From: Haloplanus rubicundus
GTDB lineage: Archaea; Halobacteriota; Halobacteria; Halobacteriales; Haloferacaceae
NCBI RefSeq assembly: GCF_003342675.1
Contig: NZ_CP031148.1
Coordinates: 1,860,001 to 1,924,000 of the forward strand
Length of the DNA stretch: 64,000 nt
Reading direction: 5' to 3'
In this document: positions 17,065 to 24,000 of the stretch, piece after piece
Numbering within the stretch: the stretch's first letter is position 1
Layout of the letters: each line of letters starts with the position of its first letter
The notes under the pieces: model-generated
The model's database searches: none
Told to the model about the DNA's origin: nothing
The model's input: only the letters and a program-made list of their open reading frames with translations
Program-made: the position numbers and the translations under genes

Positions 17065-17266
17065 CATAATCGTACGAGCCGCGTCGGTCCCGTCGACCGT
17101 TTCGACGCCGGTCACCTCGAAGCGAGCGCCGCCCGCCTCGCTCTCACCGATCCGAATCGACCAGCCGTGGCGTCGACCACGTCACGGACGATGGTGAGAC
17201 CGACCCCTGTCCCGTCCGCTCCCGCCGAGTATCCCGCGTCGAATATCCGATCCGCTCGATTCGATA
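17065..17266 (-). pseudogene. Histidine kinase C-terminal remnant, frameshifted
   Basis: On the minus strand this gap reads RADRIFDAGYSAGADGTG then VGLTIVRDVVDA. That is the F and G2 region of a haloarchaeal histidine-kinase ATPase domain. A shift of one base near 17168 then gives HGWSIRIGESEAGGARFEV, the expected end of the domain. No dimerisation domain, N box or start codon remains, because thiR abuts the upstream side. This is a decayed, truncated gene fragment of about 65 codons. Confidence 0.72.
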
Positions 17267-17280
17267 TCGCGACATTCGGT

Positions 17281-18219
17281 TTACGGTTCACTCGGCGCTC
17301 GGTCACGGCCGCCGGTCCGGTCGACGATCCGCAGCGCTCGCTCGACGGCGTCGACCGCCCCCGTTCCGAGGACGTAGGTAATCGGCTCGACGCCGAACGC
17401 CCCCTCGTGATAGAGGACGCCGGGGACGCCGTCGGAGAACAGGTCGTCGAGGCGGCGGCGCCGGTTCTCGTACCCGGCGTCGAACGCGACGGGGTCCAGT
17501 TCGTCCGGGACGGCCGCCAGCAGTTCGTCGCTGGTCGCGAGGTTGACCGCCCCACGGACGGTCGGATCGGCGCTCGTCGCGGCCAGCACCGTCGTGGCCA
17601 CGTGGTGTGACGCCCCGAACTCGGGGTTCGCGGGCACGTTGACCCGCCCCCGCATCGCGTGGATGCGGCCCGGGACGGCGGCCACGTCCGTCTCGTCGGC
17701 GGCGTCGGGTAGCGCCATCGCCACGTTCGTCCCGACGTTCGGGACGTGTGCGAGCACGCCCGTCGCGTTCGCAAACTGTCGGACGGCCCGCCGGACGTTC
17801 GACAGCACCTCGCGTTCGGCCTGTACCGCGGTGTCGCGCCCGCGCACGCAGAGATCACACCCCAGCCCCGCGAGCGCCGGCATCTCCTCCTCGTGGATCG
17901 CACAGATCGGCCCTCGATCCTCGAACGCACGGACGAGTTCCAGCAGTTCGGCCAGCGCCTCGTAGTCGTCCATCGTGCCGGCGTCGAACCCCTCGGCGAT
18001 GCGCTCGACCGTCGCCTGCGTCCGTGGATGATCGAGGAACCGCTCCTCGCCACGGCGCTCGCCCGCGAGATACTGGCTCACCGCCGCCTGTGAGACGCCG
18101 AGACGGCTGGCGATTTCGCGCTGGGCGAACCCCCGATCCGACAGCTCCGCCGCGAGCATCGACCGAACCGTCGGCAGAAATTTGTCGACGACGATTTCGC
18201 TCGGCAACTGCACCGTCAC
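17281..18219 (-). CDS. thiR: HTH plus ThiN-domain regulator (ThiR-like)
   Basis: The product has 312 residues. An N-terminal helix-turn-helix (FAQREIASRLGVSQAAVSQY) is followed by a region with cysteines (CAIHEE, CDLCVRG). The C-terminal ThiN domain reads VPNVGTNVAMALPDA, GASHHVATTVLAA and GVPGVLYHEGAFGVEP. ThiN fused to HTH is the archaeal thiamine-pathway repressor ThiR, which senses thiamine phosphate. In-frame sequence extends further upstream but is antisense to the cupin gene. I chose the GTG at 18219 (MTVQLPSEIVV); a GTG at 18213 is also possible. Its targets are not nearby. Confidence 0.78.
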   Translation of the reverse strand: MTVQLPSEIVVDKFLPTVRSMLAAELSDRGFAQREIASRLGVSQAAVSQYLAGERRGEERFLDHPRTQATVERIAEGFDAGTMDDYEALAELLELVRAFEDRGPICAIHEEEMPALAGLGCDLCVRGRDTAVQAEREVLSNVRRAVRQFANATGVLAHVPNVGTNVAMALPDAADETDVAAVPGRIHAMRGRVNVPANPEFGASHHVATTVLAATSADPTVRGAVNLATSDELLAAVPDELDPVAFDAGYENRRRRLDDLFSDGVPGVLYHEGAFGVEPITYVLGTGAVDAVERALRIVDRTGGRDRAPSEP

Positions 18220-19636: not shown

Positions 19637-20614
19637 TCAGAAGAAGGTGAACTCGCCGTCTTCGAGGACCACCTCGCCGTCGAGTTCGAGCGTGGGCTCG
19701 GCGATCATGGCGTCGAAGTGCACGGGTGCGCGGGTGGTGCCCCCGAGGTTGCTGCTCGTCCCGATGCCGAAGTGGACGTTGCCGTACCGGCCGTGGTCGT
19801 TGGAGAACCAGCCGTTGAACTCGGGACACTCGGGGTTCATGCCGACCGCGAGTTGGGCGATGTTGTAGACGGCCGGGTCGTCGTGTTCGGCCCACACGTC
19901 CGCGATGCGCTGGGCCTCACGGCCGCCTTCGACGGACGTCACGGCGCCGTCTTCGATTTCCATCCGGACCGGCTCCTCCAGCACGCCGATGTCGAGGTTG
20001 GGGATGGCGCCGTCGAAGACGACCGTTCCCTCGGTCGTTCCCTCGACGGGCGAGATGTTGGCCTCGATGTGGACCAGCGCGGTGAACTCGCCGGGTTCGT
20101 GGGCGATGCCGGGGTGGGCGTTCCCGTCCCGACCCTCCAGGCCGACGGTCACGTCGGTCCCCTGTGGCGACGTGATGCGGGCCTCGTCGGCCTCGCCGAA
20201 CTTCCGGGCCATCTCCTCGCAGTGGGGGCGCATCCCCTCGTAGTCGGCGTAGAGGCCGCCGGTTTTGAGCTGTTCGGGGGTGAACTTCACCATACTGATG
20301 AGGCGTGCGCCGGCCTCTCTGGCCGCCGCCGCGGCGCTCGAGTGAGTGATCGAGCGGTGGACGGGCGTGATGATCACCTCGGCTTCGAGCATCGCGGCCG
20401 CGACGGACGGCTCCGGCTCGTTGCCGTCGTACTCGCGGGGGTCCATCAACGTCATCGTCACGTTCGCGCCCCGTTCGTTGGCGGCTGCGGCGACGCGTTC
20501 GGCCACGTCGGCTACCTCCCAGTCCGAGACGACGAGGACGTCTTCCCCGGCCTCGATGCCCGCGCAGGTGTCGACGACGATGCTCGCGCCACCCATCTCC
20601 TGAACCGAGTCCAT
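19637..20614 (-). CDS. Leucyl aminopeptidase-like (M29 / aminopeptidase T family)
   Basis: The 325-residue product resembles the M29-type metallopeptidase family, which also includes 2,5-dihydroxypyridine dioxygenase relatives. A Rossmann-like N-terminal half (GEDVLVVSDWEVADVAERVA) is followed by a C-terminal metal-binding half with HIEANISPVEGTTEG, GMNPECPEFNG and HFDAMI. The ATG at 20614 gives MDSVQEMGGASIVVD, with a TATA-like element 27 bases upstream. A longer in-frame extension to 20761 lacks protein character. Substrate cannot be settled from sequence. Confidence 0.72.
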   Translation of the reverse strand: MDSVQEMGGASIVVDTCAGIEAGEDVLVVSDWEVADVAERVAAAANERGANVTMTLMDPREYDGNEPEPSVAAAMLEAEVIITPVHRSITHSSAAAAAREAGARLISMVKFTPEQLKTGGLYADYEGMRPHCEEMARKFGEADEARITSPQGTDVTVGLEGRDGNAHPGIAHEPGEFTALVHIEANISPVEGTTEGTVVFDGAIPNLDIGVLEEPVRMEIEDGAVTSVEGGREAQRIADVWAEHDDPAVYNIAQLAVGMNPECPEFNGWFSNDHGRYGNVHFGIGTSSNLGGTTRAPVHFDAMIAEPTLELDGEVVLEDGEFTFF

Positions 20615-20648: not shown

Positions 20649-20745
20649 ACTCCACGCCGGCGACGACGCGGACAGCACGCCCGTGTCGGCCGTGAACGCG
20701 ATGGGCCGTGCGCACGCCGGCGGATCAGCGCCACACGCAGATTTG

Positions 20746-20766
20746 ATATAGCGACATACAATTTAT
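20746..20766 (+). repeat. Left inverted repeat flanking the recombinase module
   Basis: This is a 21-base AT-rich element. On the minus strand it matches 23122-23142 on plus at 20 of 21 positions, including the perfect 15-base core TGTATGTCGCTATAT. It lies 21 bases past the end of the recombinase gene. It is too far from the 20614 start to be that promoter. It is a possible recombination or protein-binding site. Confidence 0.8.
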
Positions 20767-20787
20767 AACTTCCCGAACGGCGCCCAC

Positions 20788-21804
20788 TCAGGTGAGTTGG
20801 TATATGTTGTCCTCGTACGTCCGGCGCACCCGATCACCCCAGTCGTGGGTGTAAGTGTCGATGATGTCGCTGGCCACGTCGCCGCGGAGGTACTTGACGA
20901 TGCCCCGGTCGCCCGTGCGGTCCCGGAGGTGGGTCGTGAAGAAGTGCCGGAAGTAGTGGGGCGTGACGTTCTCCTCGGCGCCGCCGCCGTCGCGGTGCCA
21001 CCCGCGCTCGCGCGCGTGCGATTCGACCATGTGGTGGACGACGTGTGGCGTGACACGCGCTCCCCAGTCGTCGCGGGTGCTCACGAACAGTGGTTCCGCC
21101 CGGGTGGCGGTGTCGGGTCTGATGGCGAGCCAGCGCCGCAGGACGATCCGCAGTTCGTCGTCGACGGGGATCACCGTCGCGCGCTTGCGTTTGTTGGCCG
21201 CCGTCCGTCGCTCGCCGTCGATTTCGTCGCCGACGGCGCGGTCGGCGGCGACGAACAGGGCGTCCCCGCGGCCGTCGAGCTGCGGACGGATCGGTACGTC
21301 CAGCGTCTCGCGGGTGATTGGCACCGAGAGATCACGCAGGTCGAGATTGCAGAGCTCGCCCACCCGGATGCCCGTCTTGAGCATCGTCACGAGGAGCGCG
21401 CGGTCGAGCGGATGGGCGACGTCGGCGAGGAAGTCGCGCATCTCCGGGACGGCGATTTCCCGCCGCGTCGGATCGGTGTTGATGCGCTCGTCCATCTCCT
21501 CGGCGACGAGCGTCATGGGGTTCGAATCGAACGCCCCGACCTGCGTCATGTACGCGTAGAAGCGGTGGAGGTAGGCGGCGTAGGTGGCGACGGTGCTCTC
21601 GGCGACGGTGCCGCGCAGCTGGTGGACCCACGCCATACAGTCCCGGTGCTCGGCCGTCGCCGGGGTCGCCCCTCGCTCGTCGGCGAGGAAGGACTCGAAC
21701 GTCCGGAGGACGCGCTCGTAGGCCGCGCGCGTGCGGTCCGTCTTCCCGTGGTAGGTCATGTCCTGCAGGAAGTAGCCCACGGGATCGTCGACGTCGTCGC
21801 TCAC
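20788..21804 (-). CDS. Tyrosine recombinase (XerC/D-like integrase)
   Basis: The product has 338 residues. The N-terminal SAM-like core-binding domain (DRTRAAYERVLRTFESFLAD) covers about 20-110. The catalytic domain has Arg in TGIRVGELCNLDL, a Lys in NKRKRATVIPVDDE and the His-x-x-Arg box HYFRHFFTTHL. Tyr lies in IIDTYTHDWGDRVRRTY. There is no viral or plasmid gene beside it. It overlaps the DUF5805-type gene by 4 bases, a pairing I recall as common on haloarchaeal chromosomes. That suggests a resident recombinase rather than a phage integrase. Confidence 0.88.
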   Translation of the reverse strand: MSDDVDDPVGYFLQDMTYHGKTDRTRAAYERVLRTFESFLADERGATPATAEHRDCMAWVHQLRGTVAESTVATYAAYLHRFYAYMTQVGAFDSNPMTLVAEEMDERINTDPTRREIAVPEMRDFLADVAHPLDRALLVTMLKTGIRVGELCNLDLRDLSVPITRETLDVPIRPQLDGRGDALFVAADRAVGDEIDGERRTAANKRKRATVIPVDDELRIVLRRWLAIRPDTATRAEPLFVSTRDDWGARVTPHVVHHMVESHARERGWHRDGGGAEENVTPHYFRHFFTTHLRDRTGDRGIVKYLRGDVASDIIDTYTHDWGDRVRRTYEDNIYQLT

Positions 21805-22175
21805 GACTCCTCCACGAGCCGGTAGCCGCCCTCACGACCGCTGTACTGGACGACGTTCCGTTCCTGGAGCGACTCCAGCGCCTCCTCCAGCCGGTCCTCG
21901 ACCCCGTCGGTCACGGATTCGAGGAGGGCGTCCCACGAACGGTGGTCATCCCCGCTGAGGGCGTCTTTCACCCGGGGTTCGAGCCCCGAAGACGTGTCTT
22001 CGGCGGGTTCCTCGGACGACGGCCGATCGGGCACCTCGAAGTCGCGGCGGCCGGCCTGCACCATCGTCCGCACGAACTCGCTTTGACTCATGCCGAGTCG
22101 GTCGGCGTGTTCGCGCCAGCGCTCCTTCTGGTAGGGCGGCACGTACGTCTTCACCGGAACGGAGTCGTCTGCCAT
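21801..22175 (-). CDS. DUF5805-type small DNA-binding-like partner of the recombinase
   Basis: The product has 124 residues. The N-terminal 45 residues (VPVKTYVPPYQKERWREHAD then MSQSEFVRTMVQAGRR) look like a ribbon-helix-helix unit. The C-terminus looks like a small winged-helix (LEEALESLQERNVVQYS, EGGYRLVEE). The ATG at 22175 gives MADDSVPVK. A longer frame to 22262 is unlikely. Overlap with the recombinase implies coupled expression, and a directionality or accessory factor role is inferred. Confidence 0.7.
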   Translation of the reverse strand: MADDSVPVKTYVPPYQKERWREHADRLGMSQSEFVRTMVQAGRRDFEVPDRPSSEEPAEDTSSGLEPRVKDALSGDDHRSWDALLESVTDGVEDRLEEALESLQERNVVQYSGREGGYRLVEES

Positions 22176-22274
22176 ATTGGCCCCTCGATTGCCGGTTACT
22201 TCAAAGTAGTCCCACTCAGGGGGATAAGGGTCTTTATCTGGGGTTGTAGTGCCGGAATTCACCCCGCAATGTCG

Positions 22275-22335
22275 TTGTATTTGTGAATATAGTCTTACTA
22301 TGGCACTGATGACAGTCCGACACTCACAAATACAA
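22275..22335. repeat. 12-base perfect inverted repeat inside the recombinase module
   Basis: TTGTATTTGTGA at 22275-22286 and its exact reverse complement at 22324-22335 are separated by 37 bases. They lie just past the end of the SRAP gene and about 100 bases before the DUF5805-type start. It could be a terminator for the SRAP gene or a binding site. The left arm with its following bases loosely resembles the outer flanking repeats (12 of 18 positions). Confidence 0.7.
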
Positions 22336-22346
22336 ATATTCCCTGC

Positions 22347-23048
22347 TCACGCCGCCCCGTCTGCCCGCTCGACCAGTGACGGGTCGTCGTTCCGCGGATC
22401 GTTCACCTGCGTCGAGACGGGGTAGGCGGTCAGGTCGTCGGTAGGGTAGGGATCACAGCAGTCGAGGGCCGCTTCGACCGACCCGTGGAGCCACGTCGAC
22501 TCCTCGCTCGGGTCGAGGATGACGGCCATCCGGTGGTGGAGGTCGCTCACCAGGTCGTTCGGCTCCGTGGTCACGATGGCGAAGGTGTGGATCGGCTCGC
22601 TCTCGCTCGACGCCCCCGCACTCCCGAACTCGCCGAGCCCCGTCTGTCGCGTCGGTGGCTCCCACCGCGACCAGATACCCGCCATCGCGAACGGGCGGTC
22701 GTCCTCGAAGGCGACGCGGTAGGGTCGCTTTCCCTCGTCACGGCTCACCCACTCGTAGAAGCCGTCCGCGGGGACGAGACAGCGCCGGTGTTCGACCGCC
22801 TCGGCGAACGTCGGCTTCTCCGTGATGGTCTCCGAACGGGCGTTGATCGGGGGGTTCGCGTCGTCGTCGGCCCACTCCGGGACCAGTCCCCACTGCTGGT
22901 GAGTGAACTGCTTTGGGTCCGCCCCGGTCACCACCGGGAGCTCTTGCCCCGGCGCGCAGTTGTACCGCGGTTCGACGTTCGGCGACTGCGTCCCGAACCG
23001 CTCGGCCAGTTCCTCGGCCGACGTGAAGAGCGTGTACCGGCCACACAT
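22347..23048 (-). CDS. SRAP-domain protein (YedK/HMCES family)
   Basis: SRAP proteins crosslink through Cys2 to abasic sites in single-stranded DNA. The 233-residue protein starts MCGRYTLFTSAEELAERFG. It has the Asn-Ala-Arg loop (INARSETI), the catalytic Glu in PADGFYEW and His in LHHRMAVIL. All key residues are intact. It lies inside the inverted repeats that also enclose the recombinase. Its start is preceded by a TTTAA-like patch about 26 bases upstream. Confidence 0.92.
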   Translation of the reverse strand: MCGRYTLFTSAEELAERFGTQSPNVEPRYNCAPGQELPVVTGADPKQFTHQQWGLVPEWADDDANPPINARSETITEKPTFAEAVEHRRCLVPADGFYEWVSRDEGKRPYRVAFEDDRPFAMAGIWSRWEPPTRQTGLGEFGSAGASSESEPIHTFAIVTTEPNDLVSDLHHRMAVILDPSEESTWLHGSVEAALDCCDPYPTDDLTAYPVSTQVNDPRNDDPSLVERADGAA

Positions 23049-23121
23049 ACCTGCTCCTTCGGTCGGAGTGGGTTAAAGCGCCCGCCGGACGACTCGCACG
23101 TCGGTACCGTTGCCCGCAACG

Positions 23122-23142
23122 ATAAACTGTATGTCGCTATAT
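23122..23142 (+). repeat. Right inverted repeat flanking the recombinase module
   Basis: This is the partner of 20746-20766 in opposite orientation, with 20 of 21 bases matching. It lies 74 bases before the SRAP start and about 140 before the toxin-antitoxin operon. The pair encloses the recombinase, the DUF5805-type gene and the SRAP gene. Confidence 0.8.
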
Positions 23143-23281
23143 AGAGTCTATCGGGGGCGTAGTCGAGACCGGCTGTCTCGATGCATACGGCCCTTCGTCC
23201 AGAGCATGTACTCCCCTTCGGCGTTTTCGTATCTTTCACTCCTAACACTCTTTACAGTAGATGATGTACCTCGATTCGACG

Positions 23282-23653
23282 ATGTCCATCGATCGAGACA
23301 CCTTCGAGAACGCGAGTGAGGGCGAACTCGCGGACCTTTCGGTCCCGGATCAGGTGCTCGGCTTCCTCGCAGCCAATGCAGATCACGCGTTCAAAGCCCG
23401 TGAAATCGCGTCGCGAATCGACGTCGACGAGGGAGCAGTCAGCACCGCTCTTTCGCGGTTGAAGAGTCGCGACCTAGTCGAACACAAGGCGACGTACTGG
23501 GCGGTGATCGACGACGACGAGCGACTCGAAGGATACCGCGGCTACGAGCGAGCAACCGCACTGTTCAACGACCAACTCGGGACGGAAGACGCGGCGGCGT
23601 GGCGCGAGCACGCACCCGAAGAATCACACCCGAGCGTCGAGGACGAACGGTGA
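23282..23653 (+). CDS. MarR-like winged-helix protein, likely antitoxin
   Basis: The product has 123 residues. Its wHTH reads HAFKAREIASRIDVDEGAVS, then LSRLKSRDLVEHKATYWA. It overlaps the following PemK-like gene by 4 bases, which is the usual antitoxin-toxin order. I chose the ATG at 23282 (MSIDRDTFEN) because related proteins start there. An in-frame ATG at 23261, 27 bases after an AT-rich patch, is also possible. Confidence 0.78.
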   Translation: MSIDRDTFENASEGELADLSVPDQVLGFLAANADHAFKAREIASRIDVDEGAVSTALSRLKSRDLVEHKATYWAVIDDDERLEGYRGYERATALFNDQLGTEDAAAWREHAPEESHPSVEDER

Positions 23654-24000
23654 CCGACGAAGAGACACCGATCTTCGAGCGTGGGGATGTCGTCTACGGT
23701 GCTGATCCGTTCAAAGGTGACGAGAACGCTCGGCCCTGGCTCGTTCTCTCGAACCACGACGGCCGTCCGTTCCACGGCGAGCAGTATATCGCGCTGACGC
23801 TGACGTCGAAATCGTGGATGGATGGCCTGATCGAGATTCCGGAGACGAGTTGGGTTCGTGGTGGGACACCGGATGACAGTCGGATCGTTCCATGGGCCGT
23901 CCAGTCGATCGACTACGAGGACATCGACTTCTGGCAGGGTCGTCTCGACAGTGCCCTCGTCGACGGCGCGGTTGCGTCCCTCGTCGACGAACTCCAGTAG
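23650..24000 (+). CDS. PemK/MazF-like toxin
   Basis: The 116-residue protein has the CcdB/MazF barrel pattern. The opening FERGDVVYGADPF is followed by GDENARPWLVLSN, the RPWLVLSN-type motif of PemK-like RNases. GEQYIALTLTSKSWMDGLIE and SRIVPWAVQSID come next. These toxins cut mRNA in single-stranded regions. The GTG at 23650 overlaps the antitoxin stop. The pair sits just outside the inverted-repeat module. Confidence 0.8.
   Translation: MTDEETPIFERGDVVYGADPFKGDENARPWLVLSNHDGRPFHGEQYIALTLTSKSWMDGLIEIPETSWVRGGTPDDSRIVPWAVQSIDYEDIDFWQGRLDSALVDGAVASLVDELQ

Follow-up and report, generated by a model that had tools for sequence, protein, structure and literature searches.

What does a recombinase do with two inverted copies of a short sequence that enclose its own gene? 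The question is raised by a 64-kb stretch of DNA from Haloplanus rubicundus (the window), in which a 21-bp element at 20746-20766 on the minus strand recurs at 23122-23142 on the plus strand, with 20 of 21 bases identical and a perfect 15-base core. A search of the window for this core, allowing up to 3 mismatches, gave 3 matches where 0.08 were expected. Chance therefore does not account for two perfect copies of the core that flank a tyrosine recombinase gene in opposite orientations. In this study, we follow the element from the window to other haloarchaea and propose that it is probably the core recombination site of the recombinase (Int), and that such sites form units around core operons that are organized like dif modules.

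The bracketed genes and the anatomy of the site

Three genes, all on the minus strand, lie between the two copies: int (20788-21804; Pfam Phage_integrase, 3e-15), which encodes an Xer-like tyrosine recombinase of 338 aa; a gene for a DUF5805 protein of 124 aa (21801-22175; Pfam DUF5805, 7e-25), which overlaps the int start; and an SRAP gene (22347-23048; Pfam SRAP, 7e-69). Both the inverted element and the three gene assignments had been given in a preliminary description of this DNA, and both are confirmed here. A weight matrix built from the sites of other species indicates that the conserved unit is slightly longer than the 21-bp element, namely a 28-bp site. Site A (TATAAATTGTATGTCGCTATATCAAATC; 20740-20767, minus strand) has the top score of the window, 50.3, and is found about 20 bp beyond the int stop codon, pointing in the same direction as int. 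Site B (GATAAACTGTATGTCGCTATATAGAGTC; 23121-23148, plus strand; score 40.0) is oriented opposite to site A and precedes the SRAP start by about 73 bp; its central spacer, GTCGCT, is identical to that of site A. A third site (CGTAAACCGAATGTCGCGATATCGAATC; 17258-17285, minus strand), with a score of 33.8 and 2 mismatches to the consensus pattern, is located at the 3' end of an HTH-ThiN domain gene (17281-18219), and in two relative genomes (G005 and G001) the orthologue of this gene has a site at its 3' end as well. The reversed window, which served as a control, reached a top score of 14.7. Rfam and tRNA scans of the region yielded no matches.

The consensus of the site is RTAAAYYRTAT-NTCGCT-ATAYNRAAT (28 bp with flanking bases). 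Its AT-rich arms are inverted relatives of each other (approximately AWWYNRTAT) that differ in their outer parts, and the central 6 bp (NTCGCT) are asymmetric, which gives the site its direction. The arms are strongly conserved and the first base of the spacer is almost free. Judged by this anatomy, the plan of the site would be that of a tyrosine-recombinase core site.

The best sequence matches of Int among solved structures (PDB) are XerA and XerD, and its best match to a curated family (NCBIfam) is archaeal XerA, NF040815, at 105 bits, short of the family cutoff of 220. In Foldseek, the model of Int matched XerA, Cre, the Tn1549 integrase and XerH, with TM-scores that are modest because the two domains are differently placed; the match to an integron-integrase profile was weak. 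Residues R147, K205, H283, R286 and Y318 are invariant in an alignment of 33 Int homologues, the catalytic tyrosine (Y318) being assigned by motif. Each of the 31 relative genomes that are at least 90% complete encodes Int once.

The DUF5805 protein, a family unmentioned in the open-access papers found, gives a weak NikA-like (ribbon-helix-helix) match at its N-terminus (2e-4, below the Pfam cutoff), and its model shows two helices at the N-terminus and a winged-helix-like part at the C-terminus. Comparison of its fold and sequence with the PDB returned nothing significant. Since the structural match is not significant, it is the NikA-like match, together with the conserved overlap with int, that suggests a DNA-binding protein co-encoded with Int.

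On the outer flank of site B are found a gene for a MarR-like winged-helix protein (23261-23653, plus strand; Pfam MarR_2, 1.4e-6) and, overlapping it, a gene for a PemK/MazF-like protein (23650-24000, plus strand; Pfam PemK, 3e-4, below cutoff); by their predicted families, the two could possibly constitute a toxin-antitoxin pair. Relatives of the MarR-like gene (family f35) adjoin sites in three other genomes (G001, G006 and G007). The outer flank of site A carries an M29 aminopeptidase-like gene (19637-20614, minus strand; Pfam M29, 1.6e-5, below cutoff), which is missing at the corresponding place in the gene order of G005.

Distribution of the sites in haloarchaea

A search of 60 relatives for the core, allowing 1 mismatch, found it in 17 genomes, and many of the copies lie beside orthologues of int, DUF5805 or SRAP. 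For a broader view, 80 loci encoding Int relatives were taken from named Halobacteria (one genome per species, genes called with a simple codon model) and scanned with a weight matrix trained solely on sites no more than 500 bp past the int stop. A first iterative matrix with a loose threshold had drifted to generic AT-rich sequence and was discarded. A site is present 3' of int in 76 of the 80 loci, without exception pointing the same way as int and 9-399 bp past its stop codon (median approximately 57 bp), and scans of the whole loci place a partner on the opposite strand 1.8-6.5 kb upstream of int in 67-68 of the 80. Most true sites score 30-47; the reversed loci, about 1.3 Mb, contained 2 matches scoring above 25. 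The two copies in the window thus form a pair of sites associated with the recombinase, as the preliminary description had supposed, and the element, whose absence near homologous gene pairs was to have counted against that description, is indeed present there. A further suggestion, that the SRAP gene ties recombination to DNA-damage handling, finds no support. SRAP lies within the bracket mainly in Haloplanus and its near relatives and just outside it in Haloferax, the gene orders of most int loci have no SRAP nearby, and the other bracketed operons (rio2, rpl15e, gcv) do not consist of DNA-damage genes.

These other operons and the genome-wide spread of the sites had gone unnoticed, as had the third site of the window. 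A pattern search of 40 relative genomes with up to 3 mismatches found 305 sites, whereas the reversed pattern gave 5. Most genomes have several sites, the maximum being 16, and the genome from which the window was taken carries 12. Of the pairs formed by nearby consecutive sites, 46 of 56 in Haloplanus and 67 of 80 at the int loci point outward, and few point inward (6 of 56 and 0 of 80, respectively). Nearly all brackets are of one polarity, with the TAAA arm on the inner side. Across 11 Haloplanus genomes, the units bracketed in this manner are rio2-rpl15e, gcvT-gcvH-DUF7838, SRAP-DUF5805-int and a short gap beside rpl31e-tif6. A site is present at 24 of 30 rio2 loci, other genera included, and at 16 of 30 gcvT loci, mostly in Haloplanus, while the reversed control gave 1 in these 60 loci. 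In G018, a genome from a different genus, the bracketed gcv operon is longer, with two additional long genes separating gcvH from the DUF7838 gene. The persistence of the rio2 brackets across genera suggests a function beyond mobility.

Several arrangements are described here as side observations. Beside rpl31e, the same gene of about 590 aa (f97) lies between two outward-facing pairs of sites in G000 and G009 (L184 and L226); the same position holds a different gene in G002 and none in G003, G006 and G008, and this spot is apparently a cassette position. In two divergent genomes (L300, G045:C116; L301, G043:C10), rio2 and int, both with sites, are about 1.4 kb and 14 kb apart, and their location on one stretch may be the ancestral arrangement. 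A good single site adjoins a shorter phage-integrase-family gene in L016 (G003:C1, near 178448). On plasmids or secondary contigs (L180, G000:C1:51000-57000; L161; L031), a good site occurs once, within a 1.7-kb unit that is homologous among the three and contains a DDE transposase gene, and L180 and L031 have a second, different integrase-like (Phage_int_SAM_5) gene about 1.3 kb away.

Inversions and synteny breaks at the sites

Comparison of int loci between species reveals REARRANGEMENT at the sites, with the left and right flanks of one int segment found on the opposite sides in the other. The flanks are swapped in this way between Halorussus litoreus and Halorussus halobius, between two Halegenticoccus species, and between Halobium and Haloferax. 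In the 15 loci that show both groups of anchor genes, the int segment has one orientation in 11 and the other in 4, with 0 contradictory loci, and on the int tree this distribution takes no fewer than 4 changes. Throughout the Haloplanus genomes with informative flanks, the segment is found in one orientation.

Breaks in synteny are concentrated at the sites. For the same genes, the neighbour is conserved in 24.5% of comparisons across the site, versus 68% (loose gap) or 89% (tight gap) on the far side, these being counts that are not phylogenetically independent. An earlier count, in which conservation was 13% across sites as opposed to 66% and 92%, was biased by the choice of regions and was set aside. 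The dabA-dabB genes abut the gcv, rio2 or rpl31e unit (modules G, R and L, respectively) in different Haloplanus genomes. This inorganic-carbon transporter operon and a regulator adjoin a site in five Haloplanus genomes (L183, L204, L213, L221 and L233). At the level of nucleotide identity, a conserved site surrounded by intergenic DNA that has diverged would in part produce a break in homology at its edge anyway, and therefore the clear case of Halorubrum aquaticum and Halorubrum cibi is used alone: 89% identity extends through the module and ends at the outer edge of site B. No second site was found at the far end of the inserted flanks in the cases examined, and simple integration of a circular cassette is for this reason not adopted.

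Known tyrosine recombinases require matching spacers in the two sites that they recombine. The same rule is stated in a paper on the dif modules of Acinetobacter. The 6-bp spacers of the haloarchaeal sites are identical within a pair in about 20% of pairs, versus 7-11% in shuffles, and outside Haloferax the agreement among spacers of one genome is no closer than that among spacers from different species of the same genus. A module would rarely flip by itself because the spacers within a pair usually differ. Inversion at the window's own pair is possible, since its spacers match.

A proposed route of exchange and its alternatives

From these observations we infer the following route. Int, present once per haloarchaeal genome, would bind and cut the sites, with the DUF5805 protein assisting, and strand exchange would take place within the asymmetric 6-bp spacer between the two inverted half-sites. 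Recombination between inverted sites with matching spacers would flip the module; recombination between the sites of different modules, or with those of incoming DNA, would exchange the flanks. Where the spacers of a pair differ, a core operon would be protected against flipping and loss, and yet it could be exchanged with matching partners. A bolder extension, which we offer tentatively and consider rather doubtful, is a natural recombinase-mediated cassette exchange in Halobacteria, in which brackets with mismatched spacers resist flipping and loss, core operons, namely int itself, rio2-rpl15e and gcv, can be swapped as units with the homologous cassettes of other cells, and the sites shape chromosome rearrangement throughout the class.

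Alternatively, the paired sites might not be recombined at all but be bound by Int/DUF5805 or another factor to insulate, loop or regulate transcription units, with breaks gathering beside them as the flanks are unselected. Such a role would agree with the tight bracketing of complete operons, with its persistence around rio2 across genera, with the position of the rio2 site, which in some genera abuts the start codon, and with the spacers, which mostly differ inside pairs. We nevertheless consider it unlikely: the occurrence of sites at 3' as well as 5' ends is at odds with plain operators, the int segment does invert between species, the catalytic residues of Int are kept, and the site has the anatomy of a recombinase site.

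It is less probable still that the sites represent the missing haloarchaeal dif, at which Int would resolve chromosome and plasmid dimers and inversions would arise as by-products. Int is a conserved single-copy Xer-like enzyme, a dif site lies near xerA in Sulfolobales, in two copies at one place in S. solfataricus (PMC2958812), and no dif has been reported for Haloferax volcanii, in which the role of Xer-like enzymes is stated as open (PMC7776575). Four xerC/D genes of this species have already been deleted, and the cells stayed viable (PMC7776575). The haloarchaeal system shares with archaeal XerA/dif (Pyrococcus abyssi, Thermoplasma and Sulfolobus, the dif of Sulfolobales being beside xerA; PMC2958812, PMC8371274) an XerA-related recombinase, with the catalytic Arg, Lys, HxxR and Tyr in Int, as well as inverted half-sites and a 6-bp spacer. 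Against this, Int falls below the XerA cutoff, a genome has several sites in inverted pairs and not one dif, and the half-sites differ in both sequence and spacing. Set beside the 11-6-11 inverted repeat of archaeal dif, the haloarchaeal site is 28 bp long, with arms that agree in approximately AWWYNRTAT and diverge further out; its TAT and ATA triads are 6 bp apart, whereas those of the P. abyssi dif are reportedly separated by 10 bp.

The preliminary description had predicted inversion of the 2.4-kb segment. This is borne out between species, but not as a local, ongoing switch. The two sites of the window are inverted and share the spacer GTCGCT, as a phase-variation switch that often flips the segment would demand; most pairs, however, have mismatched spacers, and with identical spacers in only about one fifth of pairs a frequently flipping switch is unlikely. 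The single orientation relative to informative flanks throughout Haloplanus also argues against a switch, as do the segment's own promoter, which moves along with it, and the variable flanking genes, so that we regard this explanation as very improbable. Finally, DDE transposons or MITEs, with the sites as their terminal inverted repeats, are hardly a credible explanation. The idea is prompted by the outward-facing inverted ends and the DDE transposase gene near the single plasmid copies; against it stand chromosomal modules without a transposase, a plasmid unit that has one site and no detectable inverted partner, and rio2 and int brackets that are conserved across genera. In Acinetobacter, there are known insertion sequences with dif sites as their targets (PMC10132070).

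As core sites of Int, the reading that we favour, the haloarchaeal elements invite comparison with the dif (pdif) modules of Acinetobacter, in which genes located between inversely oriented Xer sites are moved by XerC/XerD and the modules move or flip when spacers match (PMC13141974, PMC12907356). In both systems, genes lie between inversely oriented sites composed of two arms and a 6-bp spacer that varies between sites, inversions are seen between species or plasmids, and an Xer-type recombinase acts in trans, as Int would be expected to do. The outer half of the site also resembles Xer half-sites (e.g. ATTTCGTATAA in Acinetobacter pdif sites). There are also differences. The TAT and ATA triads are 6 bp apart in the haloarchaeal site versus 10 bp in Acinetobacter pdif sites, and Acinetobacter modules alternate C and D polarities, whereas the haloarchaeal brackets are nearly all of one polarity. 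Unlike their Acinetobacter counterparts, the haloarchaeal sites are chromosomal and bracket core operons across an archaeal class, the recombinase gene is itself bracketed, and a single recombinase with DUF5805 stands in the place of XerC and XerD.

Two other systems share some of these features. The invertible regions of phiCh1/phiH1-type haloviruses likewise combine a tyrosine recombinase with inverted repeats in haloarchaeal DNA, and they act on viral genes. The sites described here are instead intergenic, chromosomal and class-wide, and an exact search of IMG/VR contigs for the site gave no match, leaving virus-borne sites without support. Integrons, too, have a tyrosine recombinase with genes between sites, but the haloarchaeal loci have no attI/attC array, their sites are not cassette-borne direct repeats, and the genes between them are core operons.

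The open-access papers found describe no haloarchaeal dif or Xer site. What the present analysis adds is a recombinase that occurs in single copy, a defined site of 28 bp and a map of its occurrence across the class. If the proposal is true, haloarchaeal genome rearrangement and chromosome resolution would become directly testable in Haloferax, and a dif-module-like organization would exist in Archaea, on core operons rather than on resistance genes.
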